From a virus: DNA of 22,354 nt. The DNA is taken from positions 1-22,354 of IMG/VR virus record IMGVR_UViG_3300021378_000180, one strand, 5' to 3'. Made by a program: the position numbers and the translations under genes. Numbering within the stretch: position 1 is the first letter of the stretch; each line of letters opens with the position of its first letter. This document shows positions 5,673-16,244 of the stretch, piece by piece. Under the pieces are notes generated by a model, which worked only from the letters and a program-made list of their open reading frames with translations, ran no database searches and had not been told where the DNA came from.

Positions 5673-8600
5673 ATGGCTGCCGTTGATGTTTCAGGTGCTT
5701 ATAAAGCAGGGTACTCCGATGCCGAAATAGCGGATTATTTAGCCCAGCAAGTTGGAATGGACATTAGTGATACCCGTAAGGCCGGGTACTCCGACAGAGA
5801 AATTGTTAACTACCTAGCGGCTAATCAGCCAGAAGGCGGGTTCGGTGCAGCGTTTGAGTCTGGTGTAGCAGGGGTTAAGTCCGCCGGTGCAGCGTTGTTA
5901 GGTAGAACCGGTGTTATTGATACCGAAACTGCTGAGCAGTACATGGCAGAAAAAGCAGCCGAGCAGCGCATGGCGTTTAAGCCGACTGAAGAAGGTTGGC
6001 TAGAAGCACCGTTAACGAAAGTAGGTGAACTTGCAGGGGGCTCCCTGCCTTATATGGTGGCTCCTATCGCTGGTGCTGTTGCGGGCGCTGCTGCTGCGGG
6101 TTCTGCTCCGGCATGGTTAGCTGCGGGTTTGGGTTCTACAGCGTTGTCCGCCCTACAATTTACAGGCACAAACTTAGAGCGCCAGATTGAAGAGGGTAAG
6201 ACCCTCGAAGAGACTGATCTTCTAAAGGCAGGTGCCACAGCGGTTCCTCAAGCATTGCTAGACACGGTTGCATTACGGTTTATCCCCGGTGTACGACGCT
6301 TGTTAGGGGCGAAAGCCAAAGAGCTTACTGAAGCGCAGTTACAGAACGTCGCCAAACGGGCTATTGCTACAAACCTAGCAGCAGCAGGGGCGAAAACTGC
6401 TTCTACCGAAGCCTTAACTGAAGTTGGGCAGCAAGCCCTAGAGCGTTTCCAAGCTGGCCTGCAAGTACTAGACGACGAGGGTAAAGACGAACTCATCGAA
6501 AGCGCCATCGGTGGTGGTGTGCTGGGCTTCCTATTTGGTGTCCCCGGCGGTGTTAATGTACGAGGTCAAGCACGAAATAAATTAGCCGAAGCAGAAGCTG
6601 CACGCCAGAAAATAATCGACGATGCTATAGCAGCAGATAACGAACAACAAGCACCGCAACTACCAGCACCGGTCACCGGAGAAGCACCAGCCGTAACAGA
6701 AGCTGACTTCCTAACCGCTGAAGAAGCGCGTGATCAAAAGCAACGTGCAGTACAAACACAACTAGACGAACAAGCGCCAGCACGTCCTGCGGTAGATCCG
6801 GTACAGGGTGATTTGTTTTTAGATGCGGCTAATCGTGAACTTCGTGCAGGTAGACCCGTCGTTGCGGCTAATCTTTTTGACGCTGCAGACACTGGGCCAA
6901 GAACCGAAACCCGCGCTGAAGAACCTGATATAACCGCGCCGGAACTACCTGCGGGGGCGGCGCCGGGGCAATTATCCTTACCCTTAATCGGTGGTCGTAC
7001 AGCCTCGCAAGTTGAGATCGAGAAGTATCTCGAGAAAGAGAACGCCACAGCAGTAGAAGGAGCGCGTCGTGCACAGGCCAAGCGGGAAGAGCAAGGTGAG
7101 CAGGCAGCAGCTCAAGCAGAAAAAGATAGGCTAAAGTTCGAGTCAGACTTAGCAGAAGTCGATGGGCGGGTACGTAGTACTCAGGATAAAACTGTAGAGG
7201 ACAACCGTCTAGAATTACTCCTGCCGCTAGTTGCAAACCCTCAAGTTACTAATATACCGAAAGCATTCGGCAGGGCGCTTCAACAGGCTGGGATTACTGA
7301 TCTTGATTTTAACCCCCGTGAACGTAAACTTATTGAACGTGCGTATGACGTTCGCGGTGCGGCGACTCCTGAACCTACAGTAGTTACTGCTCCCTCTACA
7401 CCGAATGAAATGGATGTTGCGGGGTTAATACCAGAACGTGTAGTAGGAGCTAGAGAGCCCGAGCAGATGGGCTTACCCGGTGTTATGGGTCGTGGCGCAG
7501 CTAAACGCGCAGGTAAAACTCGTCCTATAGACGACACTACAGTGCCAGAACCTGAAGCACCTACACCGATTCTTACAGAGGCCGCACTTGATGACCTACT
7601 GTTACCTAAATCATCAATGGCTAGAAAGCGGTTGTTGGGTAAAGACTTAAACGACCCTGAGCAGCGGCAAGGCGCGGTCAAAGAATTGCAGGGACTCGTT
7701 GCCAACCCACGCACTAAACCTGAAACTAAAGCTCGGATACAGGAAGTACTAGATTCGGCATTTTCATTACGCACTCAGGGTGAAATGTTTAACCCTCGCG
7801 GTGGTGTGCGTCCTGATGCTGTGCCACCTAGAACTGCGGCTCCTACTGCGGCTCCTACTGCGGCTCCTACTGCGGCTCCTACTGCGGCTCCTACTGCGGC
7901 TCCTACTGCGGCTCCTACTGCGGCTCCTACTGCGGCTACCACCGCAACGCCCACTGCGCCACAAGGACTTACTGGTGCGGGTAAGAAACTATACGATCGC
8001 TATGTTGCAGAGGTCGCAAGGACGACGAAAGCGACACCTCGTGACGCGCTTAAATCTTCGTCTGCGCCTACCCCAACCATGTTGACACCGGAACAAAAGG
8101 TGTTAGAGAACGTAGCGGCGGATATGTACGCAGGGGAAAATACTCGTGCGGCGAATGCAGTGTACGAAGCGCTTCCGGCAGAGCAAAAAGCCCAGATGGA
8201 TCAGTTCTTAGCCAACTACAAGGGTATGGAGAGACGGGCTAACATAGAAATTGCTCGACTAAACGCTATACAAGAAGCCGCTGATGAGCTCCAAAAGCAA
8301 GTAGACGCTGACATGAGCAAGTTGATTAACGTAGACGCTGCTCCCTTGATGAGGCCACTTACAGGTTCGGTTGTTACTCAGCTACAAAACAACAACTTAG
8401 TCGGTGCTTTGAATGAGTTAGCTGGGCTTACCAAGGGTGAAGTGTCTCGTATTGCGAAGAAGCTAGCGGAGCGCACTGCAGGGGTCAATGTACGGGTAGT
8501 AGATGATGCAACTCTAAACCGCATAATTTTTGAACGCACAGGCGGTGCCGAGAAAGACATTCAAGGTGTTTACTTTGCCTCGGATAACACTATCTACATT

Positions 8601-11600
8601 AACTCCGACCTAGGGCTAGATGTCCACACCCTGCTACATGAAAGCACCCATGCGGTGGTTGACGCTACGCTGGATAACAAAGCGCATCCGCTAACAAAGC
8701 AGCTACAAAAAGTGTTCGACGACGTTATCGACAACATCGGCACAGCGTACGGCTCTACTGACTTAAAAGAGTTCGCCGCCGAGTTCATGGGTAATCCAAA
8801 GTTTCGTACGTCATTGAGTACGTTATACCCACAGGGTGGCAATATATCTGCCTTGCGTAAAGTAGTGAATGCGATAAGCAACTTCGTGCGTAGGTTGGTT
8901 GGCTTAGAGCCAAAGAGTGTTGAGTCTGCTTACGACAAAGCCGGAAGTATTATTTACTCGATCCTCGAGCCGGGGCAAACTGCGCTGCAACCTACCACTA
9001 CTATGCAGGAGTACTCGTACCTACGTAAGGGCAACGTGGTTCTTGATGCGGTTGCTAAGATGTACAACAACTTGCCCGGCCTTACCGAGGCGCGTAAAGA
9101 CAAGATCGATCAGGTTGTTACTGGCACTCTGTATGGTGCGATTAAAAATGTGGTTAAAGCGGCGACGCCGTTGGATGCGTTGACAGACACAGCCGTAAGA
9201 GTGTTGCCTAGCGCTAAGCAGTTAAACACGGTTGTTAACGAGAAACACGGTGCTGAAAACCAACGTCAACAGGCTCTGGAACCCATCCAGAATGAAGCTG
9301 CGAAGTTTGCAAAGGGTAAGACTCTTGAGCAGATGACCAAGTTTAACAACGTCGTATACGGCAGTACGCTAGCTCAGGTAGATCCTAGTAAGCCTCGGAA
9401 TGACTACGTAGGTAACAATGACAAGTTAAAAGCTTGGGACGGTATGCAGGCTGAGTGGAAGTCCCTCGGTGCAGATGGTCAACGGCTTTACACCCGTATG
9501 CGTGACTCCTACGCTGTTATGTACAAAGATATCTTAAAGGTTATTGAGCAGCGCCTAGACTCAGCGACATCCGACCCCGAAGCAAACGCAAGGGTGAAGA
9601 AAGACATATTGGCTAGATTAGCCAACCAAGCCGGAAACATTGAGCCGTACTTCCCGCTGACCCGTAAGGGCGACTATTGGTTGCAGTACACAATTAGGTC
9701 AAAAGACGGCTCTTCGCAAGAAGTTGTTGTTGAGGCGTTTGAATCCGAGCGGGCTCGCCGTCGCGCAATGGAGGCCGTGCAGAAAGACCCAGAGTATGTT
9801 GCCGACAGTGTGTCGGTGTTCTCTAACCTTAAGCAGATGAAATACCGCGATGCGCCTCCGGGCTCGTTTATGAACGCTGTGTTTACTGTAATGGAGGCAA
9901 ACAAGGTACCGGCAGATGTGACCGATCAATTAATGACTTTGTTTGTTAACTCTTTACCTGCTACGTCATTTGCGCAATCGTTTCAGAAACGCCAAGGTAG
10001 GCTCGGTTTTGAGCGTGACTCTATTGCGGCGTTCCGTGAAAAGACATACAGCATATCTCGCCAACTGACCAATCTAGAATACAGCGCCAAGTTAAATGAC
10101 GTAAGGGAGCAACTGCGTCAGGAGGCCGAGGCCGCTGCCCGGCGAGGGGACAACCGAGGTAAAGAGTACTACAACGAATTCGACAAACGAATTGACTTTG
10201 CCATAAGCCCCAGCATTGATAAGTGGTCGCAGTATGCCACCTCCTACGGCTTTGCGATGACGCTCGGGTTTAACATCTCCTCTGCAATAGTTAACTTGTC
10301 ACAGATCCCATTGATGGTGCTACCTTACTACGGCGGTAAGTACGGCTATGGTGCGACTATGCGGGCAATCGCCAACGCAACAAAGTTGTTCATGGGTAGT
10401 GGGTTTAGCCAAGACCGCACAACTATCTTAGGTGATAAGGCCTCTATGCGGGTTGGGCCCTCGATCGACAACTACGACTTTGACGCTATGGCGGACACTG
10501 ACCCAAGAAAGCGTTACAAGGTTCTAGCAGAAGAGGCTGGACGGCTCGGACAGTTAAACCGCAGTCAGGTCTATGACATCTTGGACGTTGATAACATCGA
10601 CAACCCAATGGCAAAGGTAAACGCTGTTTCCGGTTTTGTTTTCCACCACGGCGAACGGATGAACCGTCAGATTGCCCTTGCTGCTGCGTACGACCTAGAG
10701 CTCGGTGCGATGGAAAAAGCTGGTCGGAAGATCGACGACGCAGCAATGCGTGAGGCTGCACAGAAAGCCACAGAACTCACCGAACTTACCAACAGCGGTA
10801 TTGCCTCGGCAGCGGCACCTAGAATTGCACAGAACTCCCTTGGGCGTGTAATGTTTATGTACAAGCGCTACGGCGTGTCTATGTACTACGCGATGTTCAA
10901 GATGGCGCGGGATTCGTTGTTTGATCAAGATCCTGAGATCCGTAAGGCTGGTATGCGCCAGATTGCAGGTACCTTTTTGTCTGCAGGGATGATGGCTGGG
11001 GTTCAGGGATTACCCTTATTCGGTGTCGGTGCACTGGTTTACAACCTCCTGAAAGAAGATGACGAGGACGATGCCGAAACCACCGTGCGTAAGCATCTGG
11101 GTGAGCTCCGATATAAGGGTCTGCTAAACGCTGCTTTCGGTGCAGATGTGGCCTCACGTATTGGACTGAGCGATCTGTTGTTTAGGGAAAACCCGGTCAA
11201 GCGTGATCAGGAGCCGATGGCTGAGATTATGGAGATGATTGGTGGCCCAGTGTATAGCATCGGTAACCGCACCTTAAGAGGTCTTAAGGACATTCAGCAG
11301 GGTGAAACTCAACGCGGTATCGAGCAGATCATGCCCTCGGCCTTCTCCAACGTGCTCAAGACAATCCGGTTTACTACTGAGGGCGTTAACACCCGACGGG
11401 GCGATCCTATCCTTGAAGAGTTTAGTTACGGTTCTGCTGCAGCGCAACTTTTCGGCTTTGCCCCTGCCAAGTACACCCGCCAGCTAGAAATCAACGCGAT
11501 GGAGAAAGGTAAGAATCGGGCGATTGACCAGAGAAGAACGAAGCTGTTGCGTCAATACAACCTAGCCGCACGTCAGGGGGACAACTCAGAGGCGCAGGAC

Positions 11601-11786
11601 ATCCTGAAACGGATCGAAGAGTTTAACGCACGTAACCCTAACGACGCTATCGACGCATCTACTATCCGTAGGTCAATGAAACAGTTTGCTAGAACGTCAT
11701 CCGAGATGCGTAGTGGTGTGACGTACAGCAAGCGTTATTTGCCTGTGTTTGAAGAAAGTATGCGGGAATACGGCGACGACGAATAA
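5673..11786 (+). CDS. Giant polyvalent-type ejected virion protein with HExxH metalloprotease motif and PLxRFG-like C-terminus
   Basis: 2037 residues. ATG preceded by AAGGAG eight bases upstream. The N-terminus carries two copies of AGYSDxEIxxYLA (12-24 and 37-49). Hydrophobic Ala/Gly segments follow (about 120-165 and 277-293). Residues 330-830 are low-complexity and charged, with a PTAA tandem repeat (721-755) and four Gln-x-x-Leu/Met-Phe/Pro peptides (378, 433, 598, 702). Residues 989-993 read HESTH, a zinc-protease HExxH, with possible third ligands E1033 or E1037. The C-terminal half has the segment GFNISSAIVNLSQIPLMVLP (from about 1532). A hydrophobic stretch before an acidic loop follows (about 1764-1800), then a charged helical end with FGFAPA. 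These resemble the PLxRFG and large-polyvalent-protein domains of phage proteins that are packaged and enter the host with the DNA. The likely roles are membrane passage and processing of host or phage proteins. Virion location is inferred, not shown. Confidence 0.7.
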   Translation: MAAVDVSGAYKAGYSDAEIADYLAQQVGMDISDTRKAGYSDREIVNYLAANQPEGGFGAAFESGVAGVKSAGAALLGRTGVIDTETAEQYMAEKAAEQRMAFKPTEEGWLEAPLTKVGELAGGSLPYMVAPIAGAVAGAAAAGSAPAWLAAGLGSTALSALQFTGTNLERQIEEGKTLEETDLLKAGATAVPQALLDTVALRFIPGVRRLLGAKAKELTEAQLQNVAKRAIATNLAAAGAKTASTEALTEVGQQALERFQAGLQVLDDEGKDELIESAIGGGVLGFLFGVPGGVNVRGQARNKLAEAEAARQKIIDDAIAADNEQQAPQLPAPVTGEAPAVTEADFLTAEEARDQKQRAVQTQLDEQAPARPAVDPVQGDLFLDAANRELRAGRPVVAANLFDAADTGPRTETRAEEPDITAPELPAGAAPGQLSLPLIGGRTASQVEIEKYLEKENATAVEGARRAQAKREEQGEQAAAQAEKDRLKFESDLAEVDGRVRSTQDKTVEDNRLELLLPLVANPQVTNIPKAFGRALQQAGITDLDFNPRERKLIERAYDVRGAATPEPTVVTAPSTPNEMDVAGLIPERVVGAREPEQMGLPGVMGRGAAKRAGKTRPIDDTTVPEPEAPTPILTEAALDDLLLPKSSMARKRLLGKDLNDPEQRQGAVKELQGLVANPRTKPETKARIQEVLDSAFSLRTQGEMFNPRGGVRPDAVPPRTAAPTAAPTAAPTAAPTAAPTAAPTAAPTAAPTAATTATPTAPQGLTGAGKKLYDRYVAEVARTTKATPRDALKSSSAPTPTMLTPEQKVLENVAADMYAGENTRAANAVYEALPAEQKAQMDQFLANYKGMERRANIEIARLNAIQEAADELQKQVDADMSKLINVDAAPLMRPLTGSVVTQLQNNNLVGALNELAGLTKGEVSRIAKKLAERTAGVNVRVVDDATLNRIIFERTGGAEKDIQGVYFASDNTIYINSDLGLDVHTLLHESTHAVVDATLDNKAHPLTKQLQKVFDDVIDNIGTAYGSTDLKEFAAEFMGNPKFRTSLSTLYPQGGNISALRKVVNAISNFVRRLVGLEPKSVESAYDKAGSIIYSILEPGQTALQPTTTMQEYSYLRKGNVVLDAVAKMYNNLPGLTEARKDKIDQVVTGTLYGAIKNVVKAATPLDALTDTAVRVLPSAKQLNTVVNEKHGAENQRQQALEPIQNEAAKFAKGKTLEQMTKFNNVVYGSTLAQVDPSKPRNDYVGNNDKLKAWDGMQAEWKSLGADGQRLYTRMRDSYAVMYKDILKVIEQRLDSATSDPEANARVKKDILARLANQAGNIEPYFPLTRKGDYWLQYTIRSKDGSSQEVVVEAFESERARRRAMEAVQKDPEYVADSVSVFSNLKQMKYRDAPPGSFMNAVFTVMEANKVPADVTDQLMTLFVNSLPATSFAQSFQKRQGRLGFERDSIAAFREKTYSISRQLTNLEYSAKLNDVREQLRQEAEAAARRGDNRGKEYYNEFDKRIDFAISPSIDKWSQYATSYGFAMTLGFNISSAIVNLSQIPLMVLPYYGGKYGYGATMRAIANATKLFMGSGFSQDRTTILGDKASMRVGPSIDNYDFDAMADTDPRKRYKVLAEEAGRLGQLNRSQVYDILDVDNIDNPMAKVNAVSGFVFHHGERMNRQIALAAAYDLELGAMEKAGRKIDDAAMREAAQKATELTELTNSGIASAAAPRIAQNSLGRVMFMYKRYGVSMYYAMFKMARDSLFDQDPEIRKAGMRQIAGTFLSAGMMAGVQGLPLFGVGALVYNLLKEDDEDDAETTVRKHLGELRYKGLLNAAFGADVASRIGLSDLLFRENPVKRDQEPMAEIMEMIGGPVYSIGNRTLRGLKDIQQGETQRGIEQIMPSAFSNVLKTIRFTTEGVNTRRGDPILEEFSYGSAAAQLFGFAPAKYTRQLEINAMEKGKNRAIDQRRTKLLRQYNLAARQGDNSEAQDILKRIEEFNARNPNDAIDASTIRRSMKQFARTSSEMRSGVTYSKRYLPVFEESMREYGDDE
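7833..7937 (+). repeat. 12-bp tandem repeat (ACTGCGGCTCCT), eight full copies plus a partial ninth
   Basis: Eight identical copies of ACTGCGGCTCCT run from 7833 to 7928, followed by nine bases of a ninth before divergence at 7938. They lie in frame in the giant virion protein and encode Thr-Ala-Ala-Pro repeats, a flexible extended linker between the N-terminal region and the protease-containing part. The perfect identity implies recent expansion by slippage or unequal recombination. Copy number changes would keep the reading frame. Confidence 0.95.
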
Positions 11787-15956: not shown

Positions 15957-16244
15957 TTAGATGTCTTCGTCATCACTAAAATTAAGTTCTAATTGCACTG
16001 GCTCAACAGTGAGCTCAGCGTTGTCTACCTGCACGGGGTCGGTTGTTTCCGGCTCCGGGCTTTCAATATTACCACCAGTTAAAGCTTCCATAACACGGGG
16101 TACGGAAAATCGATAGGTGTTCCCTGCTTTTATATAGGCGTTTCTAGGTATATGCCCTTGCCTAACCCAAGACCGTATTGTGTGTACTGTTACGCAAAAG
16201 TGCGTTGCTAACTTCTCTATCGGAACAAAAGCCTCGTCTGTCAT
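15957..16244 (-). CDS. Small helix-turn-helix DNA-binding protein (MerR/excisionase-like) with acidic tail
   Basis: 95 residues. ATG overlaps the upstream TGA (ATGA), with AAGGAG upstream. Residues 6-35 form a helix-turn-helix of the MerR/excisionase (HTH_17) kind: the VPIEKLATHFCVTVHTIRSW segment, then RQGHIPRN. A short wing with YRFSVPRVMEAL follows. The remaining third is acidic and Pro/Glu rich, ending LNFSDDEDI. There is no effector or catalytic domain. It could regulate the phage promoters, or act as an accessory DNA-bending factor. Being co-encoded with the probable SSB and primase, it may instead serve origin recognition. Excisionase function is unsupported because no integrase is visible. 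Confidence 0.75.
   Translation of the reverse strand: MTDEAFVPIEKLATHFCVTVHTIRSWVRQGHIPRNAYIKAGNTYRFSVPRVMEALTGGNIESPEPETTDPVQVDNAELTVEPVQLELNFSDDEDI

Follow-up and report, generated by a model that had tools for sequence, protein, structure and literature searches.

The window, a 22,354-nucleotide stretch of viral DNA (IMG/VR record IMGVR_UViG_3300021378_000180), encodes a 2037-residue protein whose gene closes the late, structural side of the genome. This large multi-module protein combines a variable linker region with a zincin-like region, an LPD39 domain shared by all 29 relatives searched for it, and a C-terminal half that matches DarB-like PHROGs (Table 1). Within the zincin-like region, the H, E and H of the motif and a later E are invariant in the relatives, and fold searches return weak matches only, minigluzincins among them. 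Collecting 80 IMG/VR loci via the C-terminus of the giant protein and 80 via the neighbouring primase/helicase gene yielded 83 distinct giant proteins or long fragments of 1250–2600 residues. Its cultured relatives are distant only, with the C-terminal ~800 residues common to the "DarB-like" giants of Bcep22-like podophages. Polyvalent proteins, marked by LPD39 and a zincin, are regarded as injected along with the DNA (Iyer et al. 2017, PMC5512222), and JC1 gp69, a homologous giant, was detected in purified virions with 51 peptides (PMC9144972). Because it has LPD39, a zincin-like motif and a homologue in JC1 virions, the protein is presumably a polyvalent LPD39/DarB-like protein carried in the virion and ejected with the phage DNA.

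Table 1. Features of the giant protein gene and of the second motif carrier in the window
Feature	Position	Strand	Basis
Giant protein, 2037 aa, polyvalent, presumably ejected	5673..11786	+	ORF; LPD39 Pfam and DarB-like PHROG matches; ~83 IMG/VR relatives
QGDLF, aa 378–382 (QGDLFL), clamp-binding-like	6804..6818	+	QG[DE]LF class recurs in relatives
QLSLPL, aa 433–438, clamp-binding-like hexapeptide	6969..6986	+	Letters identical to E. coli Hda
Helical module between motifs, aa 444–562	7002..7358	+	AlphaFold2, pLDDT ~90
QMGLPG, aa 598–603, family motif PEQ[MLP][GS][FLI]PG	7464..7481	+	Q in 29/33 and P in 31/33 relatives
Helical module directly before QGEMF, aa 631–700	7563..7772	+	AlphaFold2, pLDDT ~90
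QGEMF, aa 702–706, clamp-binding-like, best conserved of the four	7776..7790	+	Q702 invariant in 33 relatives
HESTH, aa 989–993, zincin-like HExxH after the linker	8637..8651	+	HExxH in 83/83 relatives
LPD39, aa 1159–1306	9147..9590	+	Pfam PF18858, E 6e-13
P0007, 95 aa, MerR/HTH_17-like, replication module	15957..16244	-	Weak Pfam HTH matches; >100 homologues in the loci
QLELNF, aa 84–89 of P0007, C-terminal clamp-binding-like hexapeptide	15978..15995	-	28/43 representatives vs 0.34 in shuffles

The pattern Q-x-x-[LM]-[FP] has four matches in the giant protein and no others, at residues 378, 433, 598 and 702. These are the peptides, spanning positions 6804–7790, that the original prediction had likened to sliding-clamp-binding motifs, and all are present as placed. 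Shuffling of residues 331–800 gives an expectation of 0.26 matches with P(≥4) of ~1e-4, and shuffling of the whole protein gives P(≥4) = 0.013; since the pattern was picked after the sequence had been read, these P values are weak alone and the homologues provide the real test. An AlphaFold2 model of residues 1–800 (mean pLDDT 60) positions all four peptides inside or at the edge of gaps with pLDDT below 50 (residues 369–383, 432–439, 597–628 and 704–707), suggesting that the motif sites are accessible within predicted disordered segments. Disorder had been ascribed to the region as a whole; the model retains it for the motif sites and interrupts it with two confident helical modules, one between motifs and one immediately preceding QGEMF. 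An APTA repeat (PT disordered repeat, residues ~721–754, positions ~7833–7935, + strand) follows QGEMF, the last motif.

Alignment of the N-terminal halves of 33 relatives, with a mean column identity of 27%, contains four invariant columns: G239, E490, N678 and Q702. At the 702 site, M and F are each found in 29 of 33 relatives, positions 704–706 being mostly [ED][ML]F. The 433 site retains Q in 18 of the 20 relatives that align there, in the forms QGELPL, QQELPL, QLPLGL, QLGLDL or QGDLF, and the 378 site aligns poorly, yet the QG[DE]LF class is present in many relatives. The expectation that clamp-like peptides are kept while the linker diverges therefore holds at 378, 433 and 702. The peptide at 598 is conserved too, but 17 of 33 relatives have F at position 4 and the prevailing form is Q-x-x-F-P-G. 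That site was rejected as a clamp motif, and its peptide is probably a family motif of another kind. The stretch PEQ[MLP][GS][FLI]PG[MV] is strongly kept there and lies off the clamp consensus in most relatives.

Motif enrichment was assessed in 34 linkers that share less than 50% pairwise identity. They contain 59 copies of Q..[LM]F where shuffled sequences give 3.0, 56 of Q.[DES][LM]F (0.55 in shuffles) and 29 of Q..[LM]P (8.4 in shuffles), counts that are not independent, as the linkers have common ancestry. The excess of the first two patterns is thus ~20–100-fold, and the folded core has none for Q..[LM]F (9 against 7.0 expected). The Q..[LM]P count is inflated by matches such as RLQLLLPI of the relatives, which corresponds to RLELLLPL in the window and lies inside a confident AlphaFold2 helix (residues 444–521); we therefore base our conclusions on Q..[LM]F. 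When each of the 20 amino acids is tried at position 1, clear enrichment is seen for Q only (22-fold). Among the control patterns, reversed order, Q...[LM]F, and the [VIA]F or [YW] variants are all flat in the linkers, and the wrong-spacing pattern Q.[LM]F has a mild threefold excess.

At least one Q..[LM]F copy is found in 27 of the 34 linkers, with copy number ranging from 0 to 6. The flanks assign 17 of the 59 copies to the 702 site; the other 42 are found elsewhere and have different flanks, the classes comprising QG[DE]LFP.EL near the N-domain, ERQGELPLVGGR, QPDLFG and LAKQGEMFGPRGG. The linker of relative L148 carries six copies close together (QGELF, three QPDLF, QLDLF and QLTLF). Recent duplication of one segment was rejected as the source of the copies, since flanks and codons mostly differ; two L148 copies do have the same codons. 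The sequence comparison leaves little doubt that the linker motifs are real and under selection.

A chance origin, in which ancestral, structurally constrained segments without common function fit a loose pattern, could draw on site 702 abutting a conserved helical module and on the family motif at 598, which is not clamp-like, and is largely refuted and hardly credible given an excess that is specific to Q1 and to spacing in linkers of such low identity, and given the changing positions and flanks of the 42 copies outside site 702.

The motifs are confined in their distribution. Distant giants (Bcep22-like, from the annotated phage collection) have motif counts at chance level, and we accordingly rejected the motifs as a trait of the whole DarB-like family. 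They are also absent from the nearer cultured phages Rollin, RHph_TM27A and KPP25 (KPP25 in part only). In a far group of relatives without linker motifs (L115, L131, L133, L134, L136, L141 and L162), the conserved core segment LSQIPLF[AV]YP matches the pattern.

The clearest clamp-like peptide of the window, absent from the original prediction, resides in P0007, whose C-terminal end reads ...VQLELNFSDDEDI. Its homologues mostly end in PVQLELDF plus acidic residues, with a preceding stretch that changes. Among 43 representatives with less than 70% identity, the hexapeptide is usually located 12–14 residues from the end. A published review names LQLELDF, with which the P0007 hexapeptide agrees in form, as the peptide most often selected in phage display against the clamp. 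Across the window and four relatives of 59–66 kb, the giant protein carries the motif consistently; the HTH protein is the second recurrent carrier, and the remaining matches are scattered. Where both genes are present, 44 loci have both features, 8 neither and 14 one only, counts uncorrected for ancestry; L148, with six linker motifs, has no P0007 tail motif.

The pocket of the bacterial β-clamp (DnaN) accepts motifs of the forms QL[S/D]LF and QLxLx[F/L], and published clamp binders include QLSLPL, QADMF, QLDLF and QLELDF. The proposed identity of QLSLPL with the clamp-binding hexapeptide of Hda is correct (PMC3836487), and this peptide has a KD of 280 nM for E. coli DnaN. The general form QxxL[FP] assumed at the outset is loose, P at position 5 belonging to the hexapeptide QLxLPL; the peptides at 378, 433 and 702 and the P0007 tail fit Q-x-x-[L/M]-[F/L] or Q-x-x-[L/M]-x-[F/L]. 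With the motifs of Hda (QLSLPL), DnaE (QADMF and QVELEF) and RecB (QVEMEF), the phage peptides share Q1, L or M at position 4, a terminal F or PL at positions 5–6, an acidic residue at position 3, and a setting in disordered linkers or tails. Three known peptides recur letter for letter in the window or its relatives: QLSLPL at 433, QADMF of E. coli DnaE in L104, and QLDLF in L148; QGEMF at 702 resembles QADMF. They differ from the bacterial examples in belonging to a phage protein, in occurring as several copies per linker, in often having G, P or Q at position 2, and in that binding here is predicted.

The revised consensus has an aliphatic residue at position 2, where L is found at 433 and in the P0007 tail, G at 378 and 702, and mostly G, P or Q in the phage linkers. 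These three residues lower affinity in E. coli peptides, Gly being tolerated but weaker according to a recent review. Gly at position 2 appears to be a natural form, because at least 15 of 30 DnaE proteins of one bacterial phylum carry QG[SAT][LM]F at the expected place. The phylum is that of a Verrucomicrobiales MAG and served just to view natural DnaE motifs; in its DnaE loci (L189 and L191–L219), the clamp motif is mostly QGSLF, not QADMF or QLxLF. The MAG itself came from the host search, in which two scans of bacterial genomes matched one short contig, L188 (8.9 kb, JARGNI010000084.1), which carries a relative and is binned with the MAG; this weak hint was set aside as too weak for a host claim.

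Motif identity suggests DnaN binding, and the presence of the same motif in two unrelated proteins of one phage points to one partner, the host clamp. A phage-encoded clamp was not detected by PF02768 in 29 relatives or by PF00712 in 26. On this sequence evidence, host DnaN is quite probably the partner of the motifs.

The evidence leans slightly towards a joint reading, in which the ejected giant protein tethers host DnaN multivalently at entry and P0007 uses the clamp later. QGDLF, QLSLPL and QGEMF of the linker would dock in the hydrophobic pocket of host DnaN, and avidity would arise because a single flexible chain bears several motifs of weak to moderate strength and each clamp dimer offers two pockets. 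The giant protein would thereby tether host clamps both to its own chain and to the entering phage DNA as infection begins, and P0007, with its stronger-looking motif, would use the host clamp later, in phage DNA synthesis or transcription. More tentatively, this may describe a podophage lineage in which a virion-borne multivalent chain captures DnaN at DNA entry and an HTH tail reuses the clamp later; the captured clamp, perhaps with the adjoining peptidase, would be brought onto the incoming genome.

All the motif evidence applies equally to a decoy, in which the ejected multivalent linker fills DnaN pockets and stops host replication or repair, or keeps enzymes that depend on the clamp, RecBCD for example, off the entering DNA. 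Copies of an ejected protein are few relative to the clamps in a cell, which suits a tether over titration, and an HTH protein with the same motif among the replication genes suggests productive clamp use. The low copy number expected in virions and the presence of the motif in a replication-module protein favour tethering over decoy action, and the purpose would be recruitment of the clamp rather than its inhibition. Inhibition nonetheless has precedents: growth of E. coli is inhibited when the cells make a clamp-motif peptide (PMC11139829), SocB in Caulobacter blocks elongation via a clamp motif (PMC9690074), Twort Gp168 is a phage clamp inhibitor, and RecB binds the clamp. We regard the decoy as unlikely. 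As relatives of the proposed system, Gp168 and SocB are likewise phage or toxin proteins aimed at host DnaN, with replication inhibited, and SocB uses a canonical clamp motif; Gp168, in contrast, sits in the DNA channel of the clamp rather than its pocket, and both are made inside the cell rather than virion-borne, neither being known as multivalent.

Two further explanations dispense with the clamp. The peptides could bind the capsid, the portal or a partner ejection protein as a packaging signal, as the late structural position of the gene and the need of ejected proteins for packaging would allow; this is improbable, as the neighbouring ejection-type proteins P0002 and P0004 and their counterparts have no consistent motif, whereas the replication-module HTH protein does, and some copies match published clamp peptides letter for letter. 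Alternatively, the zincin-like peptidase domain or another protease could cut the giant protein between modules at the linker peptides. The sites flank folded modules, the zincin motif is found in every relative, and peptidase processing of polyvalent proteins has already been proposed (PMC5512222); however, L115, L133, L134 and L136 retain HExxH without linker motifs, the six L148 copies are close together, the HTH protein ends in the same kind of motif with no modules to separate, and the agreement with known clamp peptides would have to be accidental, which makes processing very unlikely. Both explanations are disfavoured because they leave the HTH tail and the exact clamp-peptide matches unexplained.

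The giant protein resembles the polyvalent proteins of PMC5512222 in its large multi-module architecture, late genome end, LPD39, HExxH and C-terminal homology to DarB-like giants; it differs in that the clamp is unmentioned in the text of that paper and that the Bcep22-like DarB-like giants are without the motifs. P0007 is comparable to the T4 late-transcription factors gp33 and gp55, small regulators of that phage whose C-terminal tails bind the clamp (predicted for P0007), although T4 has its own clamp, whereas the relatives searched here yielded none and the presumed partner is that of the host, and P0007 is HTH-like.

Clamp motifs and polyvalent proteins are each known, and their combination is new within the literature searched, in which no publication joining the two was found, most subscription papers being outside the search. 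To our knowledge, no ejected phage protein has so far been shown to target the clamp, and the giant protein would, if the proposal is true, be the first. The host action of ejected polyvalent proteins is mostly unknown, and a conserved, testable partner is proposed here. A clamp tether in the virion would link genome entry to the host replisome and would supply a naturally occurring multivalent ligand of the clamp, in numerous variants that could be studied. Searching linkers and tails for clamp motifs also offers a simple rule for recognizing clamp-directed phage proteins.

Adjacent to P0007, P0006 (15028–15945, - strand) terminates in ..ASIVDNWDD (..ASLLDEFDD in L188), an acidic tail resembling that of single-strand DNA-binding proteins, preceded by a [PT]-[SA]-L-F-A stretch.
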